Both the position numbers and the translations under genes were made by a program. This document shows positions 1,087 through 56,539 of a DNA stretch of 64,000 nt, one piece after another; the stretch's first letter is position 1; each line of letters begins with the position of its first letter. The DNA comes from Sacculina carcini (taxonomy: Eukaryota; Arthropoda; Thecostraca; Sacculinidae). The notes under the pieces are model-generated. The model had not been told where the DNA came from and did not search any database. It was given only the letters and a program-made list of their open reading frames with translations. The stretch lies in assembly GCA_916048095.2 (NCBI GenBank), contig OU696577.1:5631440-5695439 (forward strand). The letters run 5' to 3'.

Positions 1087-1378
1087 TGTAGAAAATTTAA
1101 TGAGTACACAAAAAAACAATATCACACCAGAAAACCTCACAATGAATATAATACACCAACACAGAAAAACACAACACTCAAACGCCACTCAACGCGAAAC
1201 TTGATCCACACACTCGCCACTCTCGCCAACAACAGACCCGTAACGCAAGCGCGCTTTCCTATTTGTCACCTCGCATCACGTGACCTTTACGCGCACACAC
1301 GCATACACTCTGGTATTTCCATATGCACACCTACACCTACGTCACAGGGTCAACAGTACAGATGCACTTCTACACACC

Positions 1379-1443
<65 letters not shown>

Positions 1444-1494
1444 ATGATAAAAGTAAGCATACACTTCTACACGTTTGTTAACATAAAACCTACA
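1087..1494 (-). repeat. Element 1 3' LTR
   Basis: Direct repeat of 5203-5572 with TGTAG/CTACA ends. It is about 38 bp longer than its partner because the internal CA tract is expanded. Confidence 0.9.
1382..1440. repeat. (CA)n microsatellite inside LTR
   Basis: About 29 CA units, versus roughly 11 at the matching place in the partner LTR (about 5499-5519). The expansion therefore happened after insertion. The repeat creates spurious His-Thr ORFs on one strand and Val-Cys ORFs on the other. Confidence 0.95.
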
Positions 1495-4322
1495 CCTCCT
1501 CCTGATTGTTACAATCACATAGATAGCACACTCGACCGCCTCCACGCCTTGCACGAATTCGTTCTGATCTCCGGATCGGAACGTTCTCACGGGATTGCGC
1601 CAGGCTGATCTGGTTACTCTCGTCATCACACGTACTTGTCTGCGGCGCCACAGGAAACCACGCGATGAGTTCCTCCTCATCGTCCTCCTTTGTCTCCTCC
1701 ACGAACTCCTCCACATCCTTCGTCTGTATCTCAGCTTCGCTTGCAAGTCCTGGTCTCAAATCACGAATGTGTCTGTTCGTCCCGTCCACCTGCACACACT
1801 GGGCAGAAACAACACCAGTCACCACACCTTCAGCATATTTATCAGTACATCTGGCACTTGGCGGCTTCACCCAGACCAAATCGCCCACCATATATTTCGA
1901 CGCGGCTGCATCTCTCACCTCCGGCGACGCCTGGTCACATTTCGTCCTCACCTCGTAGTTGTGCAATAACGAAGCGGGCGAACTGCTGGCGGAGCTATCG
2001 TCTAACGGTGCGACGTTATACAAATAGACAGCTTCAGCAACCGCACATCCTTTTCTCGCGGCAATGACCTTCACTGTTCTATGATTACGCTCAACAATTC
2101 CGTTGCCAGACGGCACGTAGGCGCATCTGAATCTCAGACTCACTCCCCATTCCCTAACAAAGTGGCCGAACCTTTGACTGCGAAATGACGTTTCATTGTC
2201 TGTGAGAATAGACACTGGTTGGCCACGTTCAAAAAACACTTCCTGCAGCTTCTCGATCACGTGTTCAACACCGTGAGACCGCAACTCCCTCCAGACAGCA
2301 AATCGAGAAGGACCACAGTCAATTAGTGTCAAATACATCTTGCCTCTGAAGTGCGTTATGTCCATGGCTAACCGTTCCCACATTTTATCCACACTCAGTT
2401 GCCCTCTTTTCCACTTCACTGATGGTGGATCAATGGATTTGCACACCTCGCATGTCGACACCACTTTTGCAACATCTCTTCGACTTGCGTTATTTCCAGA
2501 CCTTCTTACAAAATAGAGAGTTCGCTTGACTCCTGGGTGTCCCATCTCGTGGTGCACCCTGCGGATGTGATCTTCTGATTTCACCATCACTGCGCAACAT
2601 GATACTGCGTGCTCATTTTCACATGCACATCTGTTTTCTAGCCATTTCCTGGGCACACGAGTAAGTCGATCTGCCTTGTTTTCTTTCGATGAAACTAGCT
2701 TCACGCTCACTTTCAACTGATACTCGTCAATGAGACATTTGACAATATCCAGTCTTCTGCGCACGAGCATTTCTCCGGCCGCTTTTGTGCGCAGACGCGA
2801 TTTATCACTCAAAAGATCAGACATCCATCGAGCAACAGTCTCAGAATCAGTCATCAGCTCAATTTCGTTAAAGTGCCACACGAGAGCCAAATTTAGACCT
2901 TTTATGACTGCCTCCAGTTCTGCCATGTTAATGTGCTGTACGTTGTTTTTCCTCAGCCAGCTGCCGTCCTCAACAATCTCGCCATCCACCTCGATTGCAG
3001 CTCCAAGAGCAAGGTTGCTTGCATCGACCCACACTCGAGCTTTTTCTCCTCGCACCGCCCATCGACCACGCACAGGGTCATGTTTTGCCAGATCATTCGA
3101 GACGCTTTGGAGACACTCTTGAAGAAATTCACTTTTTATTTCTTCATCCCATGAACTGCTGCTTTCACTTGCGATTATCTTGATATATGCAGTAGCCACA
3201 CGTAACCACCCACAAACTGGATAGTGCCCTGTCCATTTGCTGCAGACAGAAAACACGGTCCGACGTGTCACGCGTTCAGGTAACGTACACACACCACCGT
3301 CACGCGACCATCTCAATTCCTGGTCTTCCTGTGAAACCCACAAACCCAGAAGTCTAGTCCCAGCCTCGACGCTCTCACTGTCCTTACACACCAATCCATG
3401 TTCACACAAATGTTTCCTCACGTGCTCAACACTGACCAAATTTTTATTTACCAGCATATCGTCAACATACGGGACAACTCCTGATTCAACCCGCTCATCC
3501 AATTTTATCACGGTTTTGAGCACTGCCTTCAAAATCAACGGAGCTACATTCAACCCAAATCCCAATCTTGTAAGACAGTATCTTTCACCTTTAATCATTA
3601 CAGTTTGATATGGCCACAAACTAGGATGAATTCTAATCTGCAAATACGCCTTCTTCAAATCCAAGACAGCAACATTATCTCCTAACCTCCTCCAGTTCCT
3701 CAAAGCATCAGCACAAACATCAGCGTCCCTGGTATGAGCATCTATGAAAGAATTCAACTCCCTGAAGTCCATTACTGGTCTTACCTTATTCCGCTGCGGC
3801 ACAGCCATCAGCGGTATCAGTCCCCTCGCAGGGCCAAGTCTTCCTTCGTCGTACTTCACGAGCCAGCCATTCTCCATCCAACACCGCAACTCGTCATCAA
3901 AAGCCTCTTGAATACCAGCGTCCAGGCGATACGACTCCACATGGTTTTTCAAAACACTCGGACCTTCTCCGCCAGCCCACTTCCATTCCGCTGTCCACGA
4001 TTTGTCTGACGCGTCATATACAACTGTAAAATCTGTCTCGTCGACTTTCAGGTTCTTATTGCAAGGATTCACTTCATCGTGCAGATCATGGCGCGCTCCA
4101 CATGCAACACCAAACACTGGCCTTAAGTCCGCTGACAACGAAAGACCACCCAGCAGCGACATAGCATCTAGTCCAGCCACAAAACGATAATCGAACAAGC
4201 ACTCTGTAACCACAATAGCTTTTAGCTCAACTGATTTACCGTCCACGCGCAGCACTACGTTACTCTCCCCTGCGCACCGAATCATCCCTCCATTCATTGT
4301 GTACACACTGACAGTCGACCTG
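1490..4322 (-). CDS. pol: Element 1 pol: RT, RNase H, integrase
   Basis: About 940 residues, open without a stop. The frame enters from the protease upstream, so it needs no ATG. Counting from the codon at 4306: RT with LDLKKAYLQI near 215-224 and the catalytic YVDD at 280-283; RNase H with D428, E463, D487 and D546; integrase zinc motif H586/H590/C619/C622; integrase core D649, D703, E739, an exact DD35E spacing. A basic Ser-Arg rich tail follows. It would copy element RNA to DNA and insert it. The frame is separated from the protease by one extra A in a seven-A run near 4330-4336, which is either a mutation or a sequencing error. The family is clearly a retroelement, but its exact clade is not recognised. 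Confidence 0.88.
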
Positions 4323-4483
4323 TCAACTTTTTTTCCCGCACAATGACATGTGTATTAAGCTTCTGGTGCATCCGGTGTCAACCAGCACTGGACAGAACAC
4401 ACCGTTTACCTCGGCGACGACAGTCACAAGCGCCTTGTGTATTGTTTTGGAGAGGAGGCTGGCGCACACCGCCTCTCCTACTC
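4323..4483 (-). pseudogene. Element 1 protease segment (frame broken)
   Basis: Reading in the -1 frame after the slippery heptamer gives KRVGEAVCAS and then VDTGCTRSLI, the D-T/S-G active site of a retroviral-type aspartic protease. It processes the Gag-Pol polyprotein. The frame ends at a TGA just after a run of seven A. With six A it would continue directly into the RT frame, so a one-base homopolymer insertion separates protease from RT. Confidence 0.75.
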
Positions 4484-5187
4484 GTTTAACGGGCACGACG
4501 CCTGCACATGTCCCTTTTCTCCGCATCGATAACACGTGATGTTTCCAAACGACTTCTTGCTCCTACAATTTCTCGACCTACGCGACCACAATTAAAACAT
4601 TTGGGGCCTGCTCCAAGTACACAATTCGTCGTTGAACTCAAGCCGGGCGCCACGCTGCTCATATCTGAAATAATTGTCCTTGCTCTCTCAATGACCTCTT
4701 CGAACATCATCCCATCCAAATTGGCATTCGCCCTTAATACTTCTCTCACCTTGACAGGTAGACCCCTGACGAATGCACACCTCAACGTGATGTCTGCAGT
4801 GATGCCACAACAGGTGCCCAACTTCTCCAGGTCCGATGCGAACACATCCACAACCTCACCGTCCCGAAGTTTACGGTCCACGAATCGGTCCAGAGACACA
4901 TACGGGTCGGCCCCAAAAGCTCGCTGTAGCGCAAAGCACACCTTCTCTATGTTGAGCTGGTCGTCAGAGCTGAGACGATCAACTACGGCGTAAGCATTCC
5001 CGGTCAACCTCATCATAACGACTGTTGCCACATCGGTGACGCCTCTCAGTCTCAGACACATCTTCCTCACCTTTCCGAGCCACTCTGACGGGTCGCTTTT
5101 GCCGTCATACTCAGGTATAAGCCGAATGTCAAGTGATGAACTCCCACCGACGACTTGTGACTGCAGCATTTGTTCAGTTCGCTCCAT
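4478..5187 (-). pseudogene. gag: Element 1 gag
   Basis: The chosen start is the ATG at 5187 (MERTEQMLQSQ), 15 nt inside the LTR edge; the open frame extending into the LTR is not needed. The body (IPEYDGKSDPSEWLGKV, then a region with ALQRAFG and DRFVDRKLRDGE) has the usual retrotransposon Gag capsid pattern. It forms the particle shell and binds RNA. Near the C-terminus a CFNC knuckle begins, but the second knuckle (CYRCGEKGHVQASC) lies in the -1 frame, so an indel around 4570-4600 has broken the RNA-binding domain. As sequenced, the uninterrupted frame runs to a TAA at 4486-4488. Confidence 0.75.
4484..4490 (-). promoter_or_regulatory. candidate -1 frameshift heptamer G TTA AAC
   Basis: In the zinc-knuckle frame (GHVQASCPLNE, then TAG at 4478-4480) the codons read CCG TTA AAC GAG TAG. 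G TTA AAC is a known -1 slippery heptamer type (arteriviruses). A -1 slip leads exactly into the protease frame. Inference from sequence only. Confidence 0.6.
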
Positions 5188-5190
5188 GTG

Positions 5191-5202
5191 GCCGAAATAG
5201 CT
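5191..5202 (-). promoter_or_regulatory. Element 1 primer-binding site matching tRNA-Phe 5' end
   Basis: Directly abutting the 5' LTR, the element strand reads AGCTATTTCGGC. No TGG-starting site follows the LTR. The complement GCCGAAATAGCT equals nucleotides 1-12 of metazoan tRNA-Phe as I remember it. The same 12 bases sit at the same place next to H-family LTRs (34242-34253, 39717-39728, 41482-41493), which argues for function. Confidence 0.6.
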
Positions 5203-5572
5203 TGTAGAAAATTTAATGAGTACACAAAAAAACAATATCACACCAGAAAACCTCACAATGAATATAATACACCAACACAGAAAAACACAACACTCAAACG
5301 CCACTCAACGCGAAACTTGATCCACACACACGCCACTCTCGCCAACAACAGACCCGTAACGCAAGCGCGCCTTCCTATTTGTCACCTCGCATCACGTGAC
5401 CTTTACGCGCACACACGCATACACTCTGGTATTTCCATATGCACACATACACCTACGTCACAGGGTCAAAAGTACAGATGCACTTTTACACACCGCAAAC
5501 ACACACACACACACACACATAATGATAAAAGTAAGCATACACTTCTACACGTTTGTTAACATAAAACCTACA
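5203..5572 (-). repeat. Element 1 5' LTR
   Basis: Direct repeat of 1087-1494; TGTAG...CTACA ends. The AATAC target duplication lies at 5573-5577. Confidence 0.9.
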
Positions 5573-38943: not shown

Positions 38944-39371
38944 CACTTCTATGTACAGTACAGCTTTGCATTCAATTATTGAATTAATCATTGTGTAAGA
39001 AAGCAGGGTTCGAGAACCGTTTCTTTCTGTAAAAAACATGAAACTGTTTAAAAAAAACAATAACAGGTGGCATAATTTTATGATTTACTATGACGTACTA
39101 TGACGCTAAAAATTTCATCTTCAGCATAATTTCTTTCAACATATCAATTATTTGCAAGTATAAACAAGAACAACAACAACAACGTATATTTATAGCGCAT
39201 ATAAATAACATACACGCGAGCCAAGCACAAAAATGAGACACGACGATAATGGGAGGCGTGGTCGCAGCATCAACACAAATATGCGACATGTATAGTGAAC
39301 ACAAGGCAAACAAGTAAACGATGGAACCGAAGAGATAGTTAAATATTCACACAAGAGGGATGAGACTGTCA

Positions 39372-39716
39372 TGTGATCGTGTATTGTTGAATTGTGTATT
39401 GTGTGCGAGAGAGTGTGTGAGCGAGTGTGTATAGTTGTGTCGGTGTCTGTGTATGAGTTTGTCGAGTGTTCATGCCCCGCGGCGGCGAGAGAGTGACCGG
39501 CTCGCCGCTGATTGGTTGTTTCGGTGGATGTGAAGCCTGTGCGTGTGTGTGTGTGCGTGCTCCCGTGTCACAGTGTGAGCGTGAATGCGTGTTGAGGAGT
39601 CTTGTTCGTGGTGCGGTTGTGGCGTGACGTCTTGTAGGCGCGCGTGGGGTAGTGATGCCCACGCGCGCCTGTCTGAATATATCTTAGTGTTTTTGTTTTC
39701 GTTACAAGCTATTTCG
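39372..39716 (+). repeat. H-family LTR, copy 1
   Basis: TGTGATCG...GTTACA, followed directly by AGCTATTTCGGC (39717-39728). Hairpin at 39636-39670. Confidence 0.78.
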
Positions 39717-50562: not shown

Positions 50563-51186
50563 GTGAGTGAAACATAGAAAGAGGATGACGAGATGATAAA
50601 CAGGAGAAAAGTAGGTCCAGGTTGAGGTTTTTGTATTATCTGAATGTGATCAGAGTGCAATCAGGAGGGTTGCACTGGAAAGGGAGGCTGAAAAGACATA
50701 GATTGTGGTCGGAAAAAGTATTGTCAGGGGGAATAACTTGAATTTCAGGAATAGCAAGGTCGGTGGACAGTACAGGTCTAGGAAATAAAATAAGATCAAG
50801 AGTGTGACCCGAAAGATGGGTGGGAGAAGATATTGGCGAACGAAAAGCAAGAGTCAATAAGTGACGGACGAAAACGAGGACAATACGGATCAGAAGAGGG
50901 GTTATCAACCCAAAAAATGAAATCGCCGGCAATAAAGTATCTGTTTGAGAAAAATTGAGTCACAGATTCTAAAACAGCGGATAATTCATCGGAGAAGGAA
51001 GTATTAGAGACAGGATGGTTATGACGGTAGATGACTATTATACAAAACTTTGGTAAGGAAGGAAGGGACAATGACATAGCGATGAATTCAAAAGAAATAT
51101 AGGTAGAGCTTAAATGAGGGAAAATAGCAATAGAGATGGACTTGTGGAGATGAAGCCACGAAAAGGTGAGGAAAAACACACACACA
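50563..51186 (-). pseudogene. LINE endonuclease (APE type) C-terminal part
   Basis: Minus-strand frames read FFSNRYFIAGDFIFWVDNPS (GDFN-like motif, Asn replaced by Ile) and, one frame away, LSGHTLDLILFP with TFSDHNLCLF (the SDHxL motif of APE endonucleases). A frameshift separates them near 50850. It nicks target DNA for LINE insertion. The N-terminal catalytic part is missing because Element 9 interrupts. Confidence 0.8.
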
Positions 51187-51189
51187 GTG

Positions 51190-51496
51190 TGTTATGAAAT
51201 CTTGGCTATTTTTGTGCGCTCATCTGGCAGCGCTGTGGGTATTTTCTGTATAACAACAACAACATATTTTGTCTTTCACCATCGTGTTTTGCGTGCACAT
51301 CTCCGGGTATATTTCTGTATTAAATATTCTGTAAATAGCTCATTTTGGGCAATCATTTTGTTTAATTGTGTACTTACAATTATCCTGTATATATAACGTT
51401 TTATGGTTCACATATCCATTTGTACTTTCTTTTGTTTCAGGAGATGTGTGTTTTGTGATGAATAAAGCCTATCGTTGAGGCCAATCTTTCATAACA
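51190..51496 (+). repeat. Element 7 5' LTR
   Basis: Contains TATATATAA (51388-51396), a TTTCAGG initiator-like site (51435-51441) and AATAAA (51461-51466) close to the 3' edge. Confidence 0.95.
51450..51466 (+). promoter_or_regulatory. LTR segment complementary to the leader (putative self-primer)
   Basis: GTTTTGTGATGAATAAA is the exact reverse complement of 51498-51514. If transcription starts near 51439, it is about nucleotides 12-28 of the RNA. Confidence 0.65.
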
Positions 51497-51497
51497 A

Positions 51498-51514
51498 TTT
51501 ATTCATCACAAAAC
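51498..51514 (+). promoter_or_regulatory. putative self-primed primer-binding site
   Basis: TTTATTCATCACAAAAC, 1 nt after the LTR, the place of a PBS. It pairs over 17 nt with 51450-51466, the arrangement known from Tf1/sushi-type self-priming. Confidence 0.65.
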
Positions 51515-51525
51515 AATCCGATAAG

Positions 51526-54500
51526 ATGGAACGCTTTCTCAAACCAGAGAGGTTGGACTGTGACCCGTCCTCGTCTTCAGCGACACAAGAGTGGAAACAC
51601 TGGTTCAAAACTTTCGAGCTTTTTCTGACAGTCGTTCCTCAAGGAAGCGCCAACAAGTTGGGACTACTAGTCAATTTTGTGTCTTCAAAGGTGTACGATA
51701 CTATTTCTGACTGTGATACGTACGAAAAAGCTATCAAGTGTCTCAAGTCGCAGTATGTCAGACCATCAAACGAAGTGTTTGCCCGTCACCGACTGGCCAC
51801 TCGGCGTCAGCAGGTGGGAGAGTCTCTTGACGAGTATTTTCAGGCTCTCAAAGTTCTCAGCAGAGAGTGCAATTTCCAGGCCGTCACTTCAACAAAATAT
51901 TGTGACGAGTCTATACGTGACGCATTCATTGCTGGACTTCAGTCGTCAGCTATACGACAGCGCCTCCTGGAGAATACAACATTGGAACTGACTACCATGT
52001 TTGACCAAGCGCGAGCTCTAGAGTCGGCTCGGAATAACTCTGTTGTCTACGGTGAAACTCATGCGGCATGTGTCCCGGCCGACTCACTCTGTGAAAATAA
52101 TGACACCACTGCTGTTACATGTGCTGTGAGTGCGAAATGTTTCTTTTGTGGTTTACAAAGACACCCTCGCTCAAGGTGTCCTGCTCGAGAAGCTGTCTGT
52201 CATAAATGTCAGAAAACTGGTCATTTTGCCAAAGTGTGTCGTGGAAGGCCGACAACAGCTGCTGCAAATACAGACGTGGATTCTGGCGGCAAAATGATAG
52301 CATCTACCACGTCGGCAGCCACTCCGAGCTCATTGTCAAAGGCGGCTGTGAAGGTTTTCATTGCTAACGAGGAGGTTGACGGTCTCGTAGATAGTGGTAG
52401 CTCGGAAAGTTTCATTCATCCGTGTCTCGTTAAACGCCACTCGCTAACTGTTCAGCCATCACCCAGTACTGTTTCCATGGCTTCAACGACGTTCTCCACG
52501 CGAACGTCTGGACATTGTCTGGTCAATATCATAGTTAATGGTCGACAATACGATAGGGTGCGTTTGACAGTCCTGCCTCAATTGTGTTCAGATATTATTC
52601 TGGGTCAAGATTTTCAGCAGATGCATGACAATGTAGTTTTGAAGTACGGAGGAGATCTGCCACCTCTCGTTGTCTGTGGATTCAGTGCCATGAAAGTGGA
52701 CCCACCTGAACTTTTCAAAAACATGACAGAAGATTGTCACCCGATTCCAACCAAGTCCAGGAGGTACTCACATCAAGATCGGCTGTTCATCGAGAAAGAG
52801 ACTCAGCGGCTGTTGAAGGAAGGAGTCATTGAACCGTCAAATTCTCCTTGGCGTGCACAGATTGTTGTGGTCAAAGATGGCACGAAGAAATGGCGCATGG
52901 CTGTTGATTATTCGCAGACAGTAAACAAGTTCACGCTTCTCGACAGCTACCCTTTACCACGAATTGACGATACCGTGGACAAAATTGCGCGTTACCGAAT
53001 TTTCAGCACGATAGACTTGAGGAGTGCGTATCATCAGATCCCGATTCAGAATGAAGACAAGCCATATACGGCGTTTCAAGCTGGCGGCCGTTTATATCAG
53101 TTTACTCGAATTCCATTCGGAGTTACGAACGGCGTCGCCTGCTTCCAACGGATCATGGATTCTTTGATTCAGGAAGAACAGCTCTCTGGGACGTTTGCCT
53201 ACTTGGATGACGTCACCATATGTGGTATGACTCAAGAAGAGCATGACTCAAACCTTGAAAAATTCATGGCAGCGGCGAAAAGAAGAAACATCAGCTACAA
53301 CGATGAAAAATGCTCATTCTCGACGAAGTGTCTCAGTATTCTAGGCTATGTGGTGGAAGATGGCAAGAAACGCCCAGATCCAGAGAGACTTCGTCCTCTA
53401 CGCGAATTATCTTTACCCAAGGACAGAAAGTCACTGAATCGATCATTGGGTTTGTTTGCGTATTATTCGCATTGGATCCACAACTACTCTCAGAAGGTTC
53501 ACCCGTTAAGCAGCACCACTACTTTTCCAGTCTCCAAGGAAGCTGAGATCGCTTTCGAAAAACTCAAGGGTGAAATAGAAAATTCAGTAGTGCAAGCGAT
53601 TGATGAGACACTTCCTTTTGACGTGGAAACTGACGCGTCCGACGTGGCGATCGCCGCTGTACTGGCCCAGAATGGACGCCCTGTAGCGTTCTTTTCAAAA
53701 ACATTTCAAGGGCCCGAGAAATTATACGCATCGGTGGAAAAAGAAGCGCAGGCCATCATCGAAGCAGTCCGTCACTGGCGTCATTATCTAACTGGAAGAC
53801 GTTTCATCATAAGGACTGATCAGAGATCTGTGAGCTTCATGTTTGACAAGCAACATAGAAGTAAGATAAAGAACGACAAAATTTTGCGTTGGCGTCTAGA
53901 GCTGTCCTGTTACGACTACGACATTGTTTTCCGACCAGGTCACGAGAATGTGACTCCTGACATATTCTCCAGGCCTCATTGTGGAGCAGCCTGCAGTGGT
54001 GCCGATGCGTTGAGGTCTCTCCACGAAGCTTTATGTCATCCTGGCGTCACTCGCCTGTGTCATTTCATCAGGATCAAGAATTTGCCATATTCTGTAGAGG
54101 ATGTTCGACAGGTCATCCGGTCATGCAAAGTGTGTGCCGAAGTCAAACCAAGATTTAATCGACCTGAGAAGACTAGTCTAATTAAAGCAACACAACCATT
54201 TGAACGTTTAAATATAGACTTCAAGGGACCTTTACCAAGCACAGATAAGAATTGCTATTTTCTGAATATCATAGACGAGTATTCTCGTTTTCCGTTTGTG
54301 TATCCATGTTCGAACATGACTGCCGCTACCGTCATCGACTGCCTTGCGCATCTATTCTCCATTTTTGGTATGCCGGCATACATACACAGCGACAGAGGAT
54401 CGTCTTTCATGAGCAGGGAGGTTCAAGATTTCTTAATGAGAAAAGGAATAGCGTGCAGCAGAACAACGAGCTACAATCCACAAGGAAATGGTCAGGTTGA

Positions 54501-55146
54501 GCGTTTTAACGGAGTCATATGGAAAAGTGTTTTGATGGCTCTGAAGTCTCGTGGTCTTCAGACACAGCACTGGCAGACTGTTTTGCCGGATGTTCTGCAT
54601 TCTATACGCTCGTTGTTGTGCACATCTATCAATTCAACTCCACATGAAAGATTATTCAACTTCACACGACGTTCTTCTTCAGGTGCGTCGGTTCCTTCTT
54701 GGCTCTGTCATCCAGGTCCTGTTCTTCTGAAGCGCCACGTACGGGCAAGCAAAAATGAACCTCTTGTTGAAGAAGTGGAACTCATACAGGCAAATTCACA
54801 TTATGCTCATATTCGAAATCGAGCAGGTGTCGAAACGACCGTATCTACAAGACATTTGGCACCATCACATATTTATACTGATCGTGAGTCTACTGTTATC
54901 TCCAGTGATGCTGTGAATGAACCGGCGACTCGAGCTGACGCGTCGAGCCCTACCACTCCGGCGAATACTGATTTTTCAAACTCAGATCCTTCCGGACCAC
55001 AGGCATCCAGACACTCGGGTGAACCTGGTGGCGAAGCAAACGACGAAAGTAGAGTCGAAGCTGGTGATGAGGTTCAGACTGTCCGAAGGTCGAGTCGCGT
55101 CCGTAGACCGCCCAGTCGTTTTGGAGACTATGCTTGCGATTTTTAG
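51526..55146 (+). CDS. gag-pol: Element 7 Gag-Pol polyprotein
   Basis: 1206 codons from ATG 51526 (MERFLKPERLDCD). The frame is open from a few codons upstream, but those residues encode the primer site. Residues count from 51475. Capsid core WKHWFKTFELFLTVVP; knuckle CFFCGLQRHPRSRC from 222 and CHKCQKTGHFAKVC; protease DSGS from 306; RT YLDD 576-579; RNase H ETDASDVAIAAVL and RTDQRSVSFMF (Gln-Arg in place of the usual His-Lys); integrase D915, D973, E1009, exact DD35E spacing; tail RRSSRVRRPPSRFGDY. All catalytic residues are present, so this copy may be active. The single frame means Gag and Pol are made in equal amounts unless processed. Confidence 0.95.
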   Translation: MERFLKPERLDCDPSSSSATQEWKHWFKTFELFLTVVPQGSANKLGLLVNFVSSKVYDTISDCDTYEKAIKCLKSQYVRPSNEVFARHRLATRRQQVGESLDEYFQALKVLSRECNFQAVTSTKYCDESIRDAFIAGLQSSAIRQRLLENTTLELTTMFDQARALESARNNSVVYGETHAACVPADSLCENNDTTAVTCAVSAKCFFCGLQRHPRSRCPAREAVCHKCQKTGHFAKVCRGRPTTAAANTDVDSGGKMIASTTSAATPSSLSKAAVKVFIANEEVDGLVDSGSSESFIHPCLVKRHSLTVQPSPSTVSMASTTFSTRTSGHCLVNIIVNGRQYDRVRLTVLPQLCSDIILGQDFQQMHDNVVLKYGGDLPPLVVCGFSAMKVDPPELFKNMTEDCHPIPTKSRRYSHQDRLFIEKETQRLLKEGVIEPSNSPWRAQIVVVKDGTKKWRMAVDYSQTVNKFTLLDSYPLPRIDDTVDKIARYRIFSTIDLRSAYHQIPIQNEDKPYTAFQAGGRLYQFTRIPFGVTNGVACFQRIMDSLIQEEQLSGTFAYLDDVTICGMTQEEHDSNLEKFMAAAKRRNISYNDEKCSFSTKCLSILGYVVEDGKKRPDPERLRPLRELSLPKDRKSLNRSLGLFAYYSHWIHNYSQKVHPLSSTTTFPVSKEAEIAFEKLKGEIENSVVQAIDETLPFDVETDASDVAIAAVLAQNGRPVAFFSKTFQGPEKLYASVEKEAQAIIEAVRHWRHYLTGRRFIIRTDQRSVSFMFDKQHRSKIKNDKILRWRLELSCYDYDIVFRPGHENVTPDIFSRPHCGAACSGADALRSLHEALCHPGVTRLCHFIRIKNLPYSVEDVRQVIRSCKVCAEVKPRFNRPEKTSLIKATQPFERLNIDFKGPLPSTDKNCYFLNIIDEYSRFPFVYPCSNMTAATVIDCLAHLFSIFGMPAYIHSDRGSSFMSREVQDFLMRKGIACSRTTSYNPQGNGQVERFNGVIWKSVLMALKSRGLQTQHWQTVLPDVLHSIRSLLCTSINSTPHERLFNFTRRSSSGASVPSWLCHPGPVLLKRHVRASKNEPLVEEVELIQANSHYAHIRNRAGVETTVSTRHLAPSHIYTDRESTVISSDAVNEPATRADASSPTTPANTDFSNSDPSGPQASRHSGEPGGEANDESRVEAGDEVQTVRRSSRVRRPPSRFGDYACDF

Positions 55147-55156
55147 AGGGGGAGAT
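55145..55156 (+). promoter_or_regulatory. Element 7 polypurine tract
   Basis: agagggggagat lies directly before the 3' LTR and primes plus-strand DNA. Confidence 0.8.
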
Positions 55157-55463
55157 TGTTATGAAATCTTGGCTATTTTTGTGCGCTCATCTGGCAGCGC
55201 TGTGGGTATTTTCTGTATAACAACAACAACATATTTTGTCTTTCACCATCGTGTTTTGCGTGCACATCTCCGGGTATATTTCTGTATTAAATATTCTGTA
55301 AATAGCTCATTTTGGGCAATCATTTTGTTTAATTGTGTACTTACAATTATCCTGTATATATAACGTTTTATGGTTCACATATCCATTTGTACTTTCTTTT
55401 GTTTCAGGAGATGTGTGTTTTGTGATGAATAAAGCCTATCGTTGAGGCCAATCTTTCATAACA
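55157..55463 (+). repeat. Element 7 3' LTR
   Basis: Identical by eye to 51190-51496. Confidence 0.95.
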
Positions 55464-55466
55464 CAG

Positions 55467-55494
55467 TGTATTAGGCAGCAAGCGTGTGGCGTAC
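55467..55494 (-). repeat. Element 9 3' LTR, outer piece
   Basis: tgtattaggcagcaagcg, up to the Element 8 insertion. With 62722-62971 it forms one LTR whose element-strand ends are TGTAGTG...AATACA. Confidence 0.6.
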
Positions 55495-56287
55495 ACACTT
55501 GTTCACACACACATGTTTCTTTTGTATTGATTTTCGTTGTATTATTTCAGTTTATGCGTTGCATGTTTATGTTGTGCGTGTGTTTGCGTTATATGCGTTA
55601 TATACGTGTTTGTTTCATTGCATAAATTCATTTCATTGTATAAATTTACACACTTCGCAATATGATTTTATGTATGTTCGCACCGTGCACACCACCGGAT
55701 GTGTTATTTTCGTCGCCTATTTGCACCGTGTGTTTACGTCGCCGTCTGGCTGTCATCGCCGTCTGGCTATGTCGTGTTTGTGTCGCGCTGTATATCCGCG
55801 CCGCCTGTGTGCTTGTGTCTGTCTGTCTGAGCCGCCTGTGTGCGCTGCCCATTCTCCACGCAAGCCGGCGGAAGTGCTACTGTGTGTTCACACCATCCAC
55901 GGCGATGATAGTCCCGCTATTTCCCGCGACAATTCACACGACTGTTTGCTCAGGCATCGCACGGCACCTTCCAGACGGTCACGTGACCGGTGTCCTACTT
56001 GGAGTGAAGGTATTCCGGCCGGTGCTACAGGTGTTGGACAAGTCAGTCGAGAATAGTGCGTGCTGTCACACAGTGCTAGAGTTGTTCGCTCGCTTCATTG
56101 TGTTCCCGCTACTCATTCGTACTCCCCACGTATTCGTGTTCAGCCGCTGCGGGTATCGTATCTTATTGTATTGTTTCGTAATTGTAATTATGTATTAATG
56201 TTATGTAAATGTGTGAATGTAATATATAGCTGATTTACTAATTGTTTTCTATGCATGTTTAACCGTACTTAACAAGTGTAGTTAACA
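55495..56287 (+). repeat. Element 8 5' LTR
   Basis: TGTGGCGTAC...GTTAACA; same family as 6936-7737. Confidence 0.93.
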
Positions 56288-56407
56288 AGTGGTGACCCCG
56301 ACGTGATCGCAGTGTATTATATGCGGACACCGTGTTTAACAAGTGGTGACCCCGACGTGATCGCAGTGTATTATATGCGGACACCGTGTTTAACAAGTGG
56401 TGACCTC
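56284..56407 (+). repeat. tandem 54-bp units each containing a primer-binding site
   Basis: Unit aacaagtggtgaccccg...ccgtgttt is complete at 56284-56337 and 56338-56391 and partial after that. TGGTGACCCCGACGTGAT lies at 56290-56307 and 56344-56361; a third, decayed site is at 56398. Element 2 has one full unit plus the edge. Confidence 0.9.
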
Positions 56408-56539
56408 GCTAACAACTAACCACTAACAGTGGTTGTAGTAACAGCTACTTCACGCATTAACCAAATTTTACAGGTTTTACAGGTACACTAGCATCTTACA
56501 TCATGAGTCTTGATCTTCGATCTCGATCTTGGTCTTGAT

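Follow-up and report, generated by a model that had tools for sequence, protein, structure and literature searches.

A Ty3/Gypsy retrotransposon of Sacculina carcini that probably primes reverse transcription with its own folded RNA

Introduction

Self-priming has been reported for the retrotransposons Tf1, Tf2 and Tj1, for other fungal elements and for sushi (PMC4600332, PMC6934838, PMC10085805, PMC7175516), and has been proposed for Tcn1, although one paper finds no evidence of it in a moss-group Tcn1 element (PMC7175516, PMC2864245, PMC10085805). In this group the leader behind the long terminal repeat (LTR) is described as the complement not of a transfer RNA (tRNA) but of a 5' segment of the RNA of the element itself, with further duplexes nearby (PMC4600332, PMC7175516, PMC10085805); the Tf1/sushi elements are chromoviruses (PMC10085805). 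Here we describe Element 7, an LTR retrotransposon in a stretch of 64,000 nucleotides from Sacculina carcini (contig OU696577.1, positions 5,631,440 to 5,695,439 of the forward strand; hereafter the window, whose coordinates are used throughout). The source genome comprises 264 Mb in 43 contigs. Like the Tf1/sushi elements, Element 7 has a leader complementary to an upstream part of its own RNA. It differs from them in lacking a chromodomain, in its duplex of 18 nt (11 nt in Tf1), in a primer arm that mostly ends in a poly(A) signal among elements of its type, and in that this arm perhaps lies some bases inside the RNA instead of at its very end.

Outside the chromoviruses, self-priming has likewise been predicted for the TAR lineage of plant Ty1/copia elements (Houba, Osr-1), which belongs to another superfamily and another host kingdom (PMC6317226). 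The literature that we searched was mainly open-access, and as far as the text of these sources extends (including PMC3601003, PMC8220671, PMC5006619 and PMC5445492) we found no description of self-priming in a non-chromoviral animal Gypsy clade. In the main text of a survey of mollusc Gypsy clades (PMC6238403), a term search shows that the word PBS (primer-binding site) does not occur.

Structure of Element 7 and its leader

We consider it very probable that Element 7 primes minus-strand synthesis with its own folded RNA and not with a tRNA. Its leader reads A-TTTATTCATCACAAAACA: one base behind the 5' LTR begins a segment, arm B, which forms an 18-nt perfect inverted repeat with arm A inside the LTR, the arms being 31 nt apart. 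A candidate primer-binding site complementary to the element's own upstream RNA is hence situated directly behind the LTR. A preliminary description of the window had recognized 17 of these pairs (51450-51466/51498-51514) and placed the corresponding segment of the 3' LTR at 55417-55433; the complementarity is real, but it is one pair longer, and the 3' copy is shifted accordingly. We agree with its statement that no TGG-type tRNA site follows the LTR, based on inspection of the sequence without a direct comparison with host tRNAs; TGG-type leaders are present in other elements of the window. The features of Element 7 are as follows.

51185-51189, plus strand: left target site duplication CAGTG, 5 bp, read from the sequence
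51190-55463, plus strand: Element 7, LTR retrotransposon with two LTRs and one frame
51190-51496, plus strand: 5' LTR, 307 bp, TGTTATG...CATAACA, 100% identical to the 3' LTR over 307 bp
51388-51396, plus strand: TATA-like stretch, 61 nt 5' of arm A (motif only)
51435-51441, plus strand: initiator-like TTTCAGG, with a candidate RNA 5' end close by
51449-51466, plus strand: arm A, proposed self-primer TGTTTTGTGATGAATAAA, ending in AATAAA (51461-51466)
51467-51481, plus strand: small hairpin GCCT(7)AGGC in the predicted RNA fold, adjoining the proposed cleavage site
51497, plus strand: lone base A, spacer between LTR end and primer-binding site
51498-51515, plus strand: arm B, proposed primer-binding site TTTATTCATCACAAAACA, exact reverse complement of arm A
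51526-55146, plus strand: single gag-pol frame, 1206 aa, with protease, reverse transcriptase (RT), ribonuclease H (RNase H) and integrase
55145-55155, plus strand: polypurine tract AGAGGGGGAGA, read from the sequence
55157-55463, plus strand: 3' LTR, 100% identical to the 5' LTR
55416-55433, plus strand: copy of arm A inside the 3' LTR, found by inverted-repeat search
55464-55468, plus strand: right target site duplication CAGTG, read from the sequence

Element 7 is a young Ty3/Gypsy LTR retrotransposon: it has an LTR pair, a target duplication and the domain order protease, RT, RNase H, integrase in one frame; the best solved relative of its RT is Ty3, and this RT is closest to those of Gypsy elements. 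The gag match in the 1206-aa protein is weak and falls below the Pfam cut-off, and a Pfam domain search of the protein found no Chromo match, the domain that chromoviruses carry at the C end of integrase. Purine-rich tracts also sit 5' of the 3' LTR in the related families treated below. The identical LTRs (307/307 bp) and the intact frame, both already described in the preliminary account, are compatible with present-day activity.

An inverted repeat of this length at this place is uncommon in shuffled sequence. The longest non-simple inverted repeat reached 13 nt or more in 9 of 1200 mononucleotide shuffles (24 stretches of 0.8-1.1 kb from the same genome); when only the LTR was shuffled and the leader was kept in place behind it, none of 6500 trials reached 12 nt, the maximum being 11 nt. 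The window contains other inverted repeats of at least 12 nt, but that of Element 7 is the sole one at an LTR/leader junction. Seven other LTR elements of the window, identified by self-alignment, served as controls and have no such duplex. Three of their leaders are TGGTG, one is GTGGTGACTCC, two share AGCTATTTCGGC and one starts with TGATGGCG; the longest matches between leader and own LTR are <6, 6, 6, <6, <6, 6 and 9 nt, the last in an element with uncertain LTR ends.

Covariation of the arms among related families

When the genome was searched for RTs (143 matches scored out of 5853 candidates), related families with RT identities of 51-59% came up, along with one relative at 81%. The expected 5' ends were examined at 24 loci – 22 newly read ones plus L036 and L066 – and 20 of the 24 had been chosen from the RT list before their leaders were inspected. 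The gag start is present at 21 loci (it is absent in L036, L080 and L083), and 19 of these possess a duplex at the same place: 17 exact inverted repeats of 12-17 nt, one of 10 nt (L066) and one of 14 nt including a single G-U pair (L084). At the two loci without it, either part of arm A is gone (L075) or the LTR is rearranged (L076). Arm sequences vary between families, e.g. GTTCTTTGTGTAGTTAA, GTATTTTGTCTTGTTAA, AGTTTAAGTAATATAAA, TTTACAGCTTAATAAA and ATTAGAGTTGAATAAA, and match inside each family. Some of the loci belong to the same family (L069/L070, L071-L073/L076, L074/L075, L081/L088 and L086/L087), so that about fourteen families stand beside Element 7. A duplex longer than about 11 nt, as the preliminary description had it, is thus confirmed for Element 7 with its 18 nt, but it is not peculiar to this element and is a trait of nearly all families read.

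The position of the arms is equally conserved. Among 13 families whose 3' ends were fetched, LTR pairs were found in 12 (not in L079); together with Element 7, the LTR end is known in 13 families. It was placed by hand at the terminal CA, from the LTR pair and independently of the arms. Exact arm B starts one base past this CA in 11 of the 13 families, two bases past it in L069 and three in L090. In all 13, the 3' LTR likewise contains arm A. The longest match of a leader to its own LTR amounts to 9-18 nt, versus <6 to 11 nt for the LTRs of the 12 other families, and the own LTR gives the best match in 13 of 13 cases; the value of 9 nt belongs to L084, whose 14 pairs include the G-U.

For a pair count, the inner 13 pairs were taken from each of 16 families, i.e. 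the 15 of this genome and L104, a relative from another organism (see below); in the rows of L066 and L090 the anchor was moved by two bases to align AATAAA. Watson-Crick pairs account for 204 of 208 positions, with one G-U and three mismatches. When the leaders were re-dealt in 2000 trials, Watson-Crick pairs averaged 133 of 208 and never exceeded 161, and without the first six pairs, which in most families hold a shared poly(A) signal, the observed count is 110 of 112 against a re-dealt mean of 58 and maximum of 77; because related families are non-independent draws, these figures serve for orientation and do not amount to a probability. Comparison of Element 7 with L066, its nearest relative in the genome, shows a two-sided change at 51458/51506 from A-T to T-A. 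The same fold with differing but matching sequences across about fifteen families makes chance unlikely. Covariation between the two segments, which the preliminary description had looked to as a check, therefore favours self-priming: the arms of the families differ, and each matches its own leader best. The likeness to Tf1 and sushi that it had drawn is supported in this respect, but by its proteins Element 7 is not of the Tf1/sushi kind.

Within the Element 7 family itself, covariation is uninformative: over the 5' stretch used as query the copies are 89-100% alike, and arm changes are one-sided only. A search of the genome with the 5' end of Element 7 recovered 27 copies and one diverged relative with the leader sequence (L039-L066), and a normal LTR in front is missing in L061, L064 and L065. 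Both arms are readable in 24 family copies, with 18/18 pairs in 19, 17/18 in four and a 1-nt insertion in arm B in one.

Fold-back insertions joined at the arms

Some copies preserve products of aberrant reverse transcription: fold-back DNA joined exactly at the arms occurs at loci of four families. Such structures were sought by pattern in three families, with only junctions at the arms being targeted, and were met by chance in a fourth. The 15 pattern matches consist of the fold-backs C16, C11, C26 and C31:4905132, a solo LTR in C4, and ten matches that by sequence are the ordinary reverse strand of LTRs. L024 (C16:3967276-3970181) reads U5, A, arm B and the complement of 51448-51440, and then jumps to the complement of 51307-51271; the jump shares two bases, hence the complementary run ends at 51440-51442. 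In C23 (two loci with similar flanks, L071 family), C11 (L081 family), and C26 and C31:4905132 (L069 family), U5, A and arm B are followed by the complement of the LTR 5' of arm A. The fold-backs in C11 and C26 reach the LTR start, and C23 continues through the polypurine tract and pol.

C31:5872389-5874587 (L065/L067), the insertion in which target duplications were looked for, is a single fold-back insertion with a 5-bp duplication CCCTG. It begins with the LTR and part of arm B, jumps to inverted pol-gag, and returns at the arm to plus-sense U5 up to the LTR end; its right-hand LTR end arose by way of the 18-nt arm. In four families, therefore, DNA terminating in arm B had been lengthened from arm A, and such insertions show that annealing of the arms takes place in the course of reverse transcription.

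At a further junction (L061/L024), pol at 54029 is joined twice to U5 at 51465-51469, at one locus and within a tandem repeat. This is the place where strong-stop DNA on a template cut after arm A would end, and the junction is possibly a fossil of the primer cut.

Two other observations concern these copies. The LTR carries CACATCTCC (51296-51304) and its complement GGAGATGTG (51440-51448), about 135 bp apart, and the template jump in C16 falls between both places. L021/L058 (C1:6918713-6922806) has an internal inversion of 52605-53882 outside the arms, with 53741-53882 repeated.

Proposed mechanism and alternatives

In the mechanism that we propose, the RNA would start 5' of arm A, and arm A, near the 5' end of the transcript, would fold back onto arm B behind the LTR. 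A cut by RNase H after arm A (...AATAAA^GCC) would free a 3' end paired to the primer-binding site, from which RT would copy A51497, U5 and the remaining R; the product would then transfer to the 3' LTR. Plus-strand synthesis would copy the primer, so that arm B would be renewed from arm A in each round. Such renewal would keep the arms exact complements while they drift between families, and could explain the near absence of G-U pairs. Set beside the three-duplex 'pretzel' leader of Tf1, the predicted leader fold of Element 7, taken from arm A to arm B, shows the main duplex and the small hairpin GCCT...AGGC just past arm A. Similar short hairpins are predicted in several families, albeit not in all (e.g. 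ACCTT...AAGGT and GCCAA...TTGGT).

The 5' end of the RNA is more difficult to place. The motif TTTCAGG is located where the preliminary description had put it, and the stop of the C16 fold-back beside it, at 51440-51442, may mark the RNA 5' end. This stop is a single case, and the fold-backs of other families run beyond the corresponding place. Two further guides were rejected: the distance from the TATA-like motif to the arm is too variable to indicate the RNA start, and the symmetry of extra bases at the two LTR ends, considered as a test of the primer boundary, fails in some families.

Several observations weigh against self-priming or narrow its support. The duplex of L066 is decayed beyond its 10 nt. 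The families whose 3' ends were fetched had been selected after their 5' ends were known. TATA-like motifs lie 34 to 128 nt 5' of arm A, and in seven of 15 families none was found within the 130 nt searched; arm A may therefore not start at the RNA 5' end as it does in Tf1. The fold-backs demonstrate no more than annealing of the arms, probably as DNA, and inverted junctions are also seen away from the arms, namely in C1 and at the opposite end of the C31 inversion.

Of the alternatives, pairing in trans fares best, even if we regard it as improbable. Here the arms of two genomic RNAs, or arm B and the arm A copy of the 3' LTR, would pair for dimer formation or strand transfer, and priming would start from the trans duplex. 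Arm A is indeed present in the 3' LTR of Element 7 and of 12 of the 12 families in which this LTR was found, and in C23 the DNA ending in arm B was extended back through U3, the polypurine tract and pol, as if annealed to the 3' copy. However, the spacing of 31-80 nt between the arms favours pairing in cis, and the hairpin is predicted to fold alone, with -24.2 kcal/mol in Element 7 when calculated from arm A through arm B.

Slightly less probable, in our view, is that the arms form a regulatory hairpin only, which hides the 5' poly(A) signal and so prevents cutting in the 5' LTR while the 3' copy stays usable, with synthesis depending on another primer. The HIV (human immunodeficiency virus)-type poly(A) hairpin is a 5' duplex of this sort that includes AAUAAA; in Element 7 the partner is the primer-binding site, of which the 3' end has no copy. 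In 11 of 16 families AATAAA forms the end of arm A, in L084 the signal is one base further in, and the arm ends with ATTAAA in L104 and ATATAAA in L077; moreover, the arm partner follows the 5' LTR only. Nevertheless, AATAAA is lacking from the arm in the L069 and L071 families, which yet form 16-17 exact pairs. Hiding a signal requires neither a fixed site behind the LTR nor the near-zero frequency of G-U pairs (1/208), and no other primer site was seen. The two roles are compatible and can both hold: besides priming, the duplex could hide the 5' poly(A) signal and leave the 3' copy, without an adjacent partner, exposed. Should self-priming prove wrong, this second role would be the chief alternative.

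It is very unlikely that the primer is a tRNA (an internal part of it) or another host RNA and that the match to the LTR is a by-product. Half-tRNA primer sites are reported for some Ty1/copia elements (PMC6317226), and the arm was set against the elements' own LTRs and not directly against host tRNAs. Against a host primer, the leader varies by family and matches the own LTR each time, and the 70 exact genome places of the 18-nt arm lie, by position, nearly all in family copies or their LTRs; C4:1008970 is a solo LTR, and C22:273045 was not placed. With up to two mismatches there are at least 153 places, unsorted, versus 34 for a control pattern. Least credible of all is a palindrome without a role, left by template switching: fold-back DNA joined at the arms does exist, but such fold-backs presuppose existing arms, and the palindrome would need a fresh origin at nearly the same base in about fifteen families, followed by exact upkeep.

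Phylogenetic placement

Protein relatives of Element 7 are numerous: 1436 of 7991 scored have E <=0.001. The 120 listed of them share 56-78% identity over the RT-RNase H region, and PF00385 is absent from their domain lists. Many relatives are single frames of about 1200 aa, annotated as unnamed proteins, and the sources among the matches listed are Trichuris, Trichinella, Actinostola, Styela, a sea cucumber and cartilaginous fish. Ten database relatives were included in the RT tree, where all fall into one clade with Element 7; they are known from proteins, and the leader was read for L104 alone. The tree, from which w_1490 and w_46148 (poor rows) as well as fam_L083 and fam_L075 (redundant) were left out, separates this clade, represented by 26 tested members, from Ty3 and a further two Gypsy elements with a support of 100/99. 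The placement in a Gypsy tree that the preliminary description had suggested is thereby obtained relative to these elements. Since the RTs of Tf1 and sushi are not in the tree, they may share a common origin with the Element 7 clade. A chromodomain search of the genome for a chromovirus member of the tree gave 18 matches, none of which was used.

L104 (JAAESD010000556.1) is a contig in a bacterial genome record, and its protein is 61% identical to that of Element 7. Its arms are TATTGTTGATTAAA and a 14-nt complement at CTACA/A/, 51 nt apart; in the tree, L104 and Element 7 belong to two sister groups with moderate support. The bacterial genome collection contains two retrotransposon contigs, L104 with a 5' end and L105 (JABSRZ010000027.1) without one. 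As the contigs are animal-type retrotransposons, the bacterial records look contaminated. In both contigs about 150 bp are repeated at the two ends, as if assembled in a circle. Three scans of IMG/VR confirmed no relatives there.

These data are best explained if Element 7 is a Ty3/Gypsy element that primes itself and belongs to an animal-type clade outside the chromoviruses, in which the primer is longer than in Tf1 and mostly has a poly(A) signal at its end. A wider proposal, which we put forward tentatively and would not call the probable outcome, is twofold: that self-priming is common to the whole chromodomain-free animal clade, whose hosts range from whipworms and sea anemones to sharks, and is independent of Tf1/sushi; and that one duplex serves two purposes, since the poly(A) signal is the 3' end of the primer and primer formation would hide it in the 5' copy only. 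If true, primer formation would tie the making of full-length RNA to readiness for reverse transcription.

Implications

The sources cited above, as far as the available text goes, associate self-priming of Ty3/Gypsy elements with the Tf1/sushi chromoviruses and related fungal elements; a second Gypsy clade lets one ask how often tRNA dependence was lost. A match to the own LTR is a simple rule for finding primer sites that tRNA searches would miss. Furthermore, covarying families in one genome represent a natural series of primers and sites in which primer length and cleavage can be examined. Silencing in which tRNA fragments target the primer sites for tRNAs has been described (PMC7472051), and tRNA-independent elements should escape it.

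Other repeats of the window

The leader AGCTATTTCGGC is shared directly behind the 5' LTR by two elements, at 5203-5572 (minus-strand element 1087-5572) and 39367-39706 (plus-strand element), whose LTR ends are different; it is not TGG-type, and its complementarity to the own LTR is at most 6 nt. Of a perfect inverted repeat of 24 nt (42470-42493/42576-42599), one arm lies inside another LTR and the second is 52 bp past the end of that LTR. Finally, a 54-bp direct repeat at 56282-56408, present in two full copies and one partial copy, contains the primer-type site TGGTGACCCCG.
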